Of a DNA stretch of 7,546 nt, positions 805-6,614 are shown piece by piece. The notes under the pieces were generated by a model. It saw only the letters and a list, made by a program, of their open reading frames with translations, was not told the DNA's origin and ran no database searches. The stretch is from Streptomyces lilacinus (GTDB lineage Bacteria; Actinomycetota; Actinomycetes; Streptomycetales; Streptomycetaceae). The stretch spans positions 44,615-52,160 of the forward strand of contig KL569439.1 in NCBI GenBank assembly GCA_000715685.1. The letters run 5' to 3'. Both the position numbers and the translations under genes were made by a program. How positions within the stretch are numbered: the stretch's first letter is position 1; every line of letters starts with the position of its first letter.

Positions 805-1632
805 TCAGTCGTCGCCACCGCCGGAGGCGACCGGCTTGCCCCCGATGACATCCGGCCCCGGCGCCCGCTCCAGCTCGTGGCTGAGCTGGTCGAGCTCCGA
901 GCCGCCCGCCATCTGGCGGGTGAGCTCGTCGAGAGCGATCTCCTTCTTCGCGTGGCTGCCCGCCATCGCCCCCCGCTTGAGGAGGACGAATCGGTCACCG
1001 ACCAGGTACGCGTGGTGCGGGTTGTGCGTGATCAACACCACGCCCAGGCCCGCGTCCCGCGCGGCGGCCACGTACTTCAGGACCACGCCCGACTGCTTCA
1101 CGCCGAGCGCGGCGGTCGGCTCGTCCAGGACCAGCACCTTCGCCCCGAAGTACACCGCACGGGCGATCGCCACGCACTGGCGTTCGCCGCCCGACAGCGT
1201 GCCGATCGGCTGGTCGACGTCGCGCAGGTCGATGCCCATGCGCAGCAGCTCCGCGCGGGTCGTCTCGCGCATCGTCGCCACGTCGAGGCGCTTGAAGGGG
1301 CCGACCCCCTTCGTCGGCTCGGAGCCGAGGAAGAAGTTCCGCCAGACCGGCATGAGGGGGACGACCGCCAGGTCCTGGTAGACCGTGGCGATGCCGCGGT
1401 CCAGGGCCTCGCGGGGGGAGGCGAGCCTCGTCTCCTCGCCCTCGATCTCGAAGGATCCCGCGTCGTGCTGGTGCAGGCCGGCGATGATCTTGATCAGCGT
1501 CGACTTGCCCGCGCCGTTGTCGCCCAGCACGCACGTGATCTCGCCCGCGTGGACCTCGAGGGAGACGCCCTCGAGCGCGCGGATGTTGCCGTAGAACTTG
1601 CTCACGTCCGTGAGCTTCACCAGGGCGGTCAC
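805..1632 (-). CDS. Sugar ABC transporter ATP-binding protein, single nucleotide-binding domain (FrcA-like)
   Basis: ATP-hydrolysing subunit of the sugar importer, 275 aa, cytoplasmic and membrane-associated. It has Walker [10 protein letters not shown] (37-45), Q-loop VYQD (84-87), signature LSGGERQ (146-152), Walker B VLVLDE (166-171) and the switch His (H203). The GVKQS stretch after Walker B (177-181) is of the type seen in single-domain CUT2 ATPases such as FrcA, unlike the duplicated RbsA. A Gly/Pro-rich tail (about 257-275) follows the fold. The GTG at 1630-1632 is supported by a GGAGG ribosome site 7 nt upstream, and it overlaps the permease stop by 4 nt (GTGA), implying translational coupling. 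In the raw sequence a much longer frame runs into it from upstream. That fusion exists only because of the artefact inside the permease and should not be used. Confidence 0.95.
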
Positions 1633-2640
1633 TTCGTCGCCTCCGCGCGCTTGCGGACCCACGCGTTCAGCAGGGTCGCCAGGAGCAGCATCGCGCCCAG
1701 GAAGAACTTGAACCAGTCCGGGTTCCACTGCGCGTACACGATGCCCTTGCTGGTCATGCCGAAGATGAGGGCGCCGACGGCGGAGCCGATGGCCGAGCCT
1801 GTCTCTTATACACAGACAGATGTAGAGGAACTCGTTGCCGACGCCCTCGCCGGACTGGACGACGTCGTACGACATGAGCAGGTGCTGGCCCGAGATCCAG
1901 GCGCAGAAGGCCACGGCCATGTAGAGGCCGATCTTCGTGCGGTTGACCGGGACGCCGACCGCGCGGGCCGCGTCCGCGCCGCCGCCGACCGCGAAGATCC
2001 AGTTGCCCACGCGGGTGCGCAGCAGGATCCAGGTGGCGAGGGCGACGAGGCCGAGCCACCAGAGGATGGTGACCTGGAGGTCGACGCCGGCGACGGTGAG
2101 GTGGGAGGCGAAGAGGGCGCGGGCGGACTCGAAGCCCTCCATGTCGCCGATCGCCTTGGTGGAGACCGTGCCGCTGATGAGCTTGGTGAAGCCCAGGTTG
2201 AGGCCCGTGAGCATCAGGAAGGTGCCCAGCGTGATGATGAAGCTGGGCAGCTTGGTGCGGGTCAGCATGAAGCCGTTGAAGAAGCCCACGGCCAGGGTGG
2301 CGAGGAGGGAGACCCCGACGCCGACCCAGACGTTGGCGGTCATCTGGTAGCTGAACATCGACGAGATCAGCGCCGAGCTGGTGACCATGACGCCCGCGGA
2401 GAGGTCGAACTCGCCGCCGATCATGAGCAGCGCGACCGGTACGGCCATGATGCCGATCGTCGAGGACGCGTAGAGGACCGTGGAGAGGCTGGAGGCCTTC
2501 AGAAACGGTTCCGCGCTGAGCGTGAAGAAGACGAAGACCGCGGCGGCGCCGACCACCGCGCCCAGCTCGGGCCGGCCGAGCAGCCGGCGCAGCCGGCCCC
2601 CCTCCAGCAGGCGCTCGTCGACTGTTGCGGATGTGCTCAT
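1629..2640 (-). CDS. Sugar ABC transporter permease (RbsC/FrcC-like), interrupted by an assembly artefact
   Basis: Integral membrane channel subunit of the importer (BPD_transp_2/RbsC family). From the ATG at 2638-2640, 274 codons read cleanly to GNEFLYI, with many hydrophobic helices and the family motif [10 protein letters not shown]. The family's next Gly-rich segment is then missing, replaced by a Tn5 mosaic-end remnant (1799-1814 plus GACAG), after which the frame is lost. In another frame the expected C-terminus resumes ([14 protein letters not shown]... to AEATK), 56 codons ending in TGA at 1629-1631. Two correct halves flanking an adaptor mean the gene is probably intact in the organism, at roughly 345 aa. 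The nominal length here (1012 nt) is not a multiple of three. The start overlaps the binding-protein stop by 4 nt (ATGA), and the stop overlaps the ATPase start by 4 nt (GTGA). Confidence 0.9.
1799..1819. other. Tn5/Nextera mosaic-end remnant (probable assembly artefact) in the permease gene
   Basis: Positions 1799-1814 read CTGTCTCTTATACACA, the first 16 nt of the 19-nt Tn5 mosaic end used in tagmentation libraries (CTGTCTCTTATACACATCT). They are followed by GACAG (1815-1819), the last five bases of the same element in reverse orientation. This looks like two library fragments, each ending in adaptor, merged through a short overlap with the genomic sequence between them lost. In the permease frame it encodes the non-native residues CLCIRDR. 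The native bases missing here are unknown. Confidence 0.93.
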
Positions 2641-3647
2641 CGGGTGCCCCGCTTCGCGTACTCGGCCAAGAGCTTGGCGTCGTCCTTGGTGACGATCTGC
2701 GGTCCGGTCAGCACCGGGCGGCCGCCGCCGAGCATGTCGCGGTTGTAGCGGTGGAGCCACAGGAGGTCGACGGCCTCGTAGCCCTGGAGATACGGGTCCT
2801 GGTCGACGGCGAAGCCGAGGGTGCCCTTCTGGAGGTCCTGGGCGACCTGGGCGTTGAGGTCGAAGGTGTCGACCTCCGCCTTGCTGCCGGCCTGCCCGGC
2901 CGCCTTGACGGCGGTGGAGGCGAAGGGGGCACCGAGGGTGACGACGGCGTCGATGTCCTTGTCGGACTGGAGCTTCGCCTCGATGGACGACTGCACGCCG
3001 GGCATGTTCGTGCCCTCGACGTAGAGGTTCTGCACGTCGCCCTTGAAGCTCTTCTTCACGCCCTCGCAGCGCTGCTCGTGGCCCACGTTGCCCTGCTCGT
3101 GCAGGACGCAGACGGCCTTCTTCTTCCCGCGCCGGTTGAGCTGCTCGCCGACGGCCTCGCCGGCGACGACCTCGTCCTGGCCGATGTGGGTGAGCGCGCC
3201 GAACTCCTTGGACTTGTCGGAGCCCGAGTTCACGGTGATCACCGGGATGCCGGCCTTCGTGGCCTTGGCGACGACGTCCTTCATGGCGTCGGGCTTGGCG
3301 AGGGTGACGATCAGCCCGTCGACCCGCTGGTCGATCATGGCCTGCACGCTCTGCGCCTGCTTGTTGCCCTCGGCGTCGTGTGCGTAGAGGAAATTGATGT
3401 TGTCCTTGACGGCCGCTTGCTTGGCGCCCTTCTGGACGATGTCCCAGAAGTTGTCGCCATCGCCCGAGTGGGTGACCATCGCGAAGGTCCACCGGGGGGT
3501 GTCGACCGCTGCCCGCCCCTGGGCGGCCTTGGCGGCCCGCTCCTCGGCGCGCTTGCCGCCCGTGCTGCTGCACCCCGCCAGTGTGGCGCCGAGCACCGCT
3601 GCCAGCACGGCGCTCACCGCACGTACGCCTGTCCGAACCCTTGCCAC
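2637..3647 (-). CDS. Sugar ABC transporter substrate-binding lipoprotein (periplasmic-binding-protein type I, RbsB/FrcB-like)
   Basis: Extracellular solute receptor of the importer, 336 aa. The N-terminus has Arg residues, a hydrophobic stretch and the lipobox LAGC, with C26 as the lipidated residue, followed by a charged linker. The mature part is a Peripla_BP_4-type two-lobed fold: [21 protein letters not shown] near residues 54-74, [16 protein letters not shown] for the first-lobe strand, [11 protein letters not shown] for the hinge-side sugar pocket, [14 protein letters not shown], and [16 protein letters not shown] and [15 protein letters not shown] in the second lobe. The GTG at 3645-3647 is the first start after an in-frame TGA and has GAAGGG about 9 nt upstream. 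It is the first gene of the operon, downstream of a good promoter at 3768-3797. The family points to a monosaccharide or polyol; the actual ligand is not deducible. Confidence 0.95.
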
Positions 3648-3718
3648 GAGGACTTGCCCTTCTCACTGTCTGTCACGGTGCGGCCGGGCGCCGATCTCTC
3701 GGGCCCAACCGCCCAAGT

Positions 3719-6017: not shown

Positions 6018-6614
6018 TCAGCGGCCCGGGCGCGGAACGGCGTCCTCCAGGCGCCCGAGGAGCTCGCCGACGCGCTTGGCGACCGTGTCGCGGTCGCCTT
6101 CGGACAGCTCGGTGCCCAGGGCGCAGGCGACGGCCCCGGCCTGTCTCTTATACACCTGCGGCAGCTCCGCGCGGACCTCGGTGAGCCAACGGGGGTGCCG
6201 GGCGGGCGCGGGGAAGAGCCGCAGCGCGTCGGCGCCCAGCTCCATGGCCCGCAGGATCTCCGCGGGCGTCGCGACGCCGGGGAACACCGGCACGCCGTAC
6301 CGGTGACCGGTGCGGACGACGGAGGTCCGCAGGCCGGGCGAGGACAGGAACCGCGCTCCCGCGTCGACCGCCAGCCGGGCGGAGGCCCCGTCCAGCACCG
6401 CGCCGGCGCCGATCAGCGCCTCGTCGCCGACCTCGCGGGCGAGGGTGGTGACGACCTCGAGGGCGAACGGCGTGGTGAGGGATATCTCCAGGCTCGTGAT
6501 CCCCGCGGAGAGCAGGGTGCCGGCCGTCGCCGCGGCGTGGTCGTAGCTCTCCCCGCGGACGAGGGCCACGACGCGCTGGTCCAGCGCGGCTCGAGTGATC
6601 TCCCAGCGGTACAC
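6018..6614 (-). CDS. KDPG/KHG aldolase-family protein, Schiff-base Lys replaced by Arg; contains an assembly artefact
   Basis: Class I aldolase-like TIM-barrel protein (Eda family, 2-keto-3-deoxy-6-phosphogluconate/4-hydroxy-2-oxoglutarate aldolase). The 198 codons show LEISLTTP (42-49, with the family's catalytic Glu at E43), IGAGAVLD (68-75), FLSSPG (89-94), GVPVFPGVATPAEI (107-120) and ALRLFPAP (130-137). In active members the last motif reads K(L/F)FPA and the Lys forms the Schiff base; here it is R132 (codon CGG). Residues 154-158 (VYKRQ) are encoded by a Tn5 mosaic-end remnant that replaces the family's phosphate-binding PTGG segment, so about 20 native residues are probably missing. 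The remainder (AGAVACALGTELSEGD) resumes in frame. Start: GTG at 6612-6614, with AGAAGGG about 12 nt upstream; the open frame further upstream runs antisense-like through the next gene. Activity is doubtful because of R132. Confidence 0.88.
   Translation of the reverse strand: MYRWEITRAALDQRVVALVRGESYDHAAATAGTLLSAGITSLEISLTTPFALEVVTTLAREVGDEALIGAGAVLDGASARLAVDAGARFLSSPGLRTSVVRTGHRYGVPVFPGVATPAEILRAMELGADALRLFPAPARHPRWLTEVRAELPQVYKRQAGAVACALGTELSEGDRDTVAKRVGELLGRLEDAVPRPGR
6141..6155. other. Tn5/Nextera mosaic-end remnant (probable assembly artefact) in the aldolase gene
   Basis: CTGTCTCTTATACAC is identical to the first 15 nt of the 19-nt Tn5 mosaic end. Read on the minus strand it encodes VYKRQ, a peptide familiar as adaptor contamination in database proteins. 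It falls exactly where aldolase conservation is interrupted, so native sequence has been lost at the join. Being 15 nt long, it leaves the frame open and hides the defect. Confidence 0.93.

Follow-up and report, generated by a model that had tools for sequence, protein, structure and literature searches.

Probable leftover Nextera adaptor breaks a sugar-transporter permease gene in a Streptomyces lilacinus assembly that carries such scars genome-wide

The 21 bases at positions 1799–1819 of the window, that is, of the whole 7,546-nucleotide stretch of Streptomyces lilacinus DNA analysed here, are best explained as leftover Nextera adaptor (probability roughly 0.87), which likely entered the record via reads running off short fragments and likely links two contig ends at a point where relatives carry 44 native bases. 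Neither the break in the permease gene at this position nor the open frame that runs from the permease into the neighbouring ATPase is expected to exist in the living strain. The feature is an assembly artefact that holds no new biology, and its value is that of a quality warning.

Window positions 1799–1814 (scar 1, left part) read CTGTCTCTTATACACA, the first 16 of the 19 bases of the Tn5 mosaic end CTGTCTCTTATACACATCT, and are followed at 1815–1819 by GACAG, the last five bases of the reverse complement of the mosaic end. This reading of the letters had already been given by the initial annotation, which was made from the sequence alone, and it is confirmed. A search of the window with the 19-mer, allowing up to three mismatches, returned two matches (1799–1817 and 6141–6159), and two matches were found in none of 200 shuffles of the window, the maximum in any shuffle being zero.

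At the site of scar 1 all eleven aligned relatives have 44 native bases where the window has 21, i.e. the window is 23 bases short, and the permease frame is therefore lost. The alignment set consisted of the eleven best matches besides the own genome (83–88% identity), obtained by searching 150 genomes of the genus, the own one among them, at the DNA level with window positions 1640–2640; a match was present in 150 of 150, the weaker ones being probably paralogues. Aligning the permease to Streptomyces relatives had been proposed as a check together with an estimate of 14–20 missing residues; the missing segment is seen in eleven of eleven, and the estimate came close. Four stand-alone permeases whose complete sequences were read (P0013, P0015, P0017 and P0020) also have the segment IAAVIGGCLMTGGYG at this place. 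A 26-base pattern taken from the missing segment of the relatives had no match with up to three mismatches anywhere in the own assembly, so that the segment looks absent rather than moved.

Table 1. Features of the window, with the evidence on which each is placed
Feature	Position	Strand	Evidence
Adaptor scar 1, left part (16 mosaic-end bases)	1799–1814	+	Sequence, mismatch search
Adaptor scar 1, right part (GACAG)	1815–1819	+	Sequence, alignment of relatives
Second adaptor scar (scar 2), 15 exact mosaic-end bases	6141–6155	+	Mismatch search, alignment of relatives
KDPG/KHG aldolase gene (PF01081) carrying scar 2	6018–6614	−	Family match, frame open
Permease gene (BPD_transp_2), disrupted by scar 1 in the record	1629–2640	−	ATG 2640, stop TGA 1631–1629
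ATPase gene (ABC_tran), GTG start 1632	805–1632	−	Four-base overlap with permease stop
Sugar-binding protein gene (Peripla_BP_4), same operon	2637–3647	−	Family match
953-aa open frame, an artefact (out-of-frame binding protein + permease + scar + ATPase)	805–3666	−	ORF translation

The broken gene is part of an ABC sugar transporter operon, in which genes matching Peripla_BP_4, BPD_transp_2 and ABC_tran are adjacent on one strand; its putative substrate, xylose or ribose, is taken from the database names of the matches. As recorded, the permease span from 2640 to 1629 measures 1012 bases, which is not divisible by three. The permease frame shifts at scar 1 and continues in the ATPase frame, passing through about 55 out-of-frame residues before the ATPase start, and from the permease ATG at 2640 to position 805 an open frame of 611 amino acids results that matches both BPD_transp_2 and ABC_tran. 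The 953-aa fusion frame initially described does exist, but it takes as its start a GTG that lies shortly before the binding-protein gene, at 3666, and its first 342 codons cross that gene out of frame, the permease-ATPase part being the 611 amino acids.

Those 611 open codons with matches to both families are what would be expected of a genuine permease-ATPase fusion protein, and two-domain entries exist elsewhere, accounting for 18 of the 120 listed among 7,964 protein matches. However, the position of the break coincides exactly with adaptor letters, which argues against a genuine pseudogene as well, 101 of the 120 matches listed carry the permease domain only, and the segment missing here is kept in the four stand-alone permeases. 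Together with the out-of-frame residues between the scar and the ATPase start, these observations leave a true fusion or pseudogene with hardly any probability. The initial claim that an artefact splits the permease and that neither a fusion nor a pseudogene is likely is supported by the segment present in the relatives and by the adaptor continuations and N-gap copies described below.

The two-domain entries among the 120 matches listed are P0001–P0012, P0014, P0016, P0018, P0022, P0059 and P0061, and 17 of these 18 are single-member clusters. Several have an out-of-frame middle, which suggests that they stem from frameshift errors; a few, e.g. P0002 and P0059, look continuous. None of the 120 listed proteins, to which the window's own fused protein does not belong, contains any of six mosaic-end peptides that were sought. 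Given that 18 of the 120 are fused and none carries such a peptide, permease-ATPase fusions also arise without adaptor, which counts as a point against the adaptor reading.

The second match in the window, which the initial annotation had missed, lies in an aldolase gene, where 15 bases stand in place of 57 in three of three aligned relatives (eleven were searched, of which only three had a usable aldolase match). As the difference of 42 bases is divisible by three, the frame of the aldolase is not closed, and the scar reads VYKRQ on the minus strand within it. Because of this open frame, the gene would pass as intact and escape a check for frameshifts. We explain scar 2 in the same way as scar 1, as probable leftover adaptor at contig ends that were likely joined.

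While the local scar reported at first is real, the artefact extends over the whole genome. The 15-base core of the mosaic end, CTGTCTCTTATACAC, occurs in 1,542 exact copies (741 + 801) in the 7,558,468 bases and 325 contigs of the own assembly, i.e. once per approximately 4.9 kb, against a chance expectation of about 0.0008 at the base composition of our sample (71.4% GC); the reversed core, used as a control, has no copy in the assembly, and the full 19-mer has 509. A detailed sample of 400 kb from four scaffolds held 76 core copies, of which 51 abut an N gap, one reaches a gap within 40 bases, one lies at a contig end, seven are followed by an inverted end and the remaining 16 join other sequence. 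The seven are a lower bound, since the rule of our script overlooked joints ending in GACAG, and scar 1 and three other joints of this kind sit among the 16. No N was found within 60 bases of 23 of the 76 copies, both window copies among them. The same sample contains 116 N gaps (one per approximately 3.4 kb), 56 of which have a mosaic-end stub no more than 60 bases away on at least one side. An open frame of at least 150 codons spans 21 of the 23 N-free joins, a weak observation given that open frames are common at 71% GC.

The longer core copies continue either as ATCTCTGATGGCGCGAGG (42 genome-wide) or as ATCTCTGAGCGGGCTGGC (41 genome-wide), which are the continuations of Epicentre Nextera adaptors 1 and 2, respectively, the match to the reverse complements of the two adaptors extending over as many as 28 and 25 bases, respectively; the adaptor sequences are printed in the portion of PMC3699833 used here. 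Nearly equal numbers are expected of a library with two randomly placed adaptors. Among the 32 occurrences of adaptor 1 that were read (30 loci), 31 end at an N run, one at a contig end and none in other sequence, and for adaptor 2 (30 occurrences, 30 loci) the respective numbers are 27, two and one, with a few occurrences possibly counted twice as neighbouring loci overlap. The two window copies match the mosaic end exactly over 16 and 15 bases at 1799 and 6141, and with their 16+5 and 15 bases they are too short to tell the adaptor generation, so that the assignment rests on the other copies in the genome. It is in these other copies that continuation into the sequencing adaptor is found, and a contig-end position is shared by 51 of the 76 sampled copies and by neither window copy.

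As described in the sections of PMC3906532 considered here, short inserts place the reverse-complement adaptor at read ends. Our scars resemble the read-through in that paper in having the same mosaic-end letters, which point away from the genomic insert and in the longer copies are followed by the rest of the adaptor; they differ in that the paper deals with reads, whereas here the tails persist in an assembled genome and some of them join contig ends without any N. Untrimmed adaptor tails would thus have become part of contig ends, and when contigs were merged or gaps closed, some tailed ends may have been joined directly and others left as an N run, a course of events reconstructed from the assembly. 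For the 23 of 76 sampled copies without nearby N, such a join step must be assumed. One published chain of adaptor removal, contig building and scaffolding run on Nextera data is the A5 pipeline, going by the part of PMC3441570 consulted, and we name it as an example without implying its use for this assembly.

On scaffold C64 the window reaches exactly from one N run (44350–44614) to the next (52161–52461) and therefore represents one gap-free contig of that scaffold. At its left edge, a ROK-family gene (2–610) is cut by the N gap. When 60 kb of C64 were compared with the relative G018, 12 of 23 N gaps were measurable (nine of the other eleven were unmatched in either relative and two had unusable placements); the corresponding distance ranged from −8 to 214 bases and was below 100 in 11 of the 12. 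Given that the N runs written in the first 60 kb of C64 are 209–323 bases long, the gap sizes look inflated. Four N-free scars in the same stretch replace about 28, 5, 44 and 57 bases; the values of 20 and 38 returned by the script were corrected by hand, since adaptor letters had been counted as flank. Compared with the other relative, G035, scar 2 stands in place of 74 bases, with a 96-base unaligned tail. The gaps and scars of C64 look like one class of place, where adjoining contig ends lie a few bases apart and some of them are adaptor-tailed.

A join could also have been made in the tube, if two library fragments were linked during PCR via the adaptors at their ends and the resulting chimeric molecule was then copied faithfully by the assembler. 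The two inverted mosaic-end pieces of varying length seen in joined copies (16+5 here, 17+9 and 17+12 elsewhere) would agree with such an origin. However, N gaps, rather than joins, are where most sampled copies lie (51 of 76 immediately at a gap), the N-free scars of C64 replace approximately 5 to 57 bases, which is of the same order as the nearby N gaps, and a random chimera would link distant fragments. We consider a join in the tube improbable in comparison with leftover adaptor at contig ends.

The mosaic end and its in-frame peptides are also shared by the scars of Tn5 and mini-Tn5 elements; CLLYTS and DVYKRQ are known from linker mutagenesis with EZ-Tn5 linkers in the excerpted text of PMC3066235, and a real Tn5-type insertion in the strain's permease gene, e.g. 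a mini-Tn5 or EZ-Tn5 scar, could have written such letters. Unlike these scars, scar 1 has no payload between its ends. On insertion, Tn5 generates a nine-base duplication of its target without any loss of target bases. In contrast, the bases of the relatives are missing at scar 1 (21 versus 44 in eleven of eleven), and of the 13 cases in the 400-kb sample that have a mosaic-end piece on either side (six across N gaps and seven joined, scar 1 included), none has flanks whose suffix and prefix coincide over at least six bases. Neither do the 1,542 core copies, many of them with sequencing adaptor and an adjoining N gap, fit an insertion in the strain, which we regard as exceedingly unlikely. 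Natural IS50 ends were rejected as well, the mosaic end being a synthetic hybrid of the Tn5 ends.

In a scan of named genomes, the mosaic end followed by Epicentre adaptor 1 was found in at least 103 stretches. The 80 stretches listed come from NRRL actinomycetes with 'Doro1' scaffold names, haloarchaea and Streptomyces sp. rh34; 53 of them have N within 60 bases, 25 lie at a record or locus end and two are joined. For nine genomes chosen for carrying the adaptor, the core was counted in five actinomycetes (1039, 2013, 595, 855 and 246 copies) and in four haloarchaea (16, 28, 25 and 26 copies). Judging by the organism names, PMC4230888 is probably the source of the haloarchaeal set; in the portion used here, it reports Epicentre Nextera among its libraries. 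Our guess is that the own assembly is akin to the 'Doro1' series, with which it shares the adaptor, a similar scar density and the same gap pattern.

These data point, with good though not full confidence on our side, to a systematic class of error, in which early-Nextera public actinomycete assemblies each hold hundreds to thousands of scars. About a third of those sampled here (23 of 76) are N-free and would replace tens of native bases and write VYKRQ, CIRDR, LSLIH or VSYTH into predicted proteins, and false losses, fusions and variants would in this way be seeded in genomes that represent species. Given one core copy per approximately 4.9 kb and, in the sample, one N gap per approximately 3.4 kb, a search for the mosaic end should precede any call of gene absence, pseudogenes, fusions or variants from the own assembly (completeness 86.54). 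Fifteen bases, or five protein letters such as VYKRQ, suffice as a query to flag a case.

The five papers matched by five mosaic-end peptides include the linker mutagenesis of PMC3066235, and two others mention transposition or transposomics in the text retrieved. In this limited search, no paper on adaptor scars inside bacterial assemblies was recognisable among the matches listed; PMC10246020, as far as its retrieved text goes, addresses contamination by foreign organisms.

Within the genus, the full 19-mer is present in 25 of 392 genomes including the own one, whose 509 copies are followed by 36 in the next highest. At 16 places read in eleven other genomes of the genus, the mosaic end lies at a contig end in seven and inside a contig in nine (six of these in G340), and a contig-end position is hence not universal. 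Eight of the 16 places continue for at least 14 bases into the later Illumina Nextera adaptors. The letters that follow these adaptors in some of those places are presumably sample index letters. The adaptor sequences used for this comparison are those given in the available part of PMC3906532. The six internal mosaic ends of G340 are all located on its 5.26-Mb contig C1, most of them near short N runs and odd-looking sequence, and this contig gives the impression of several smaller ones chained together.
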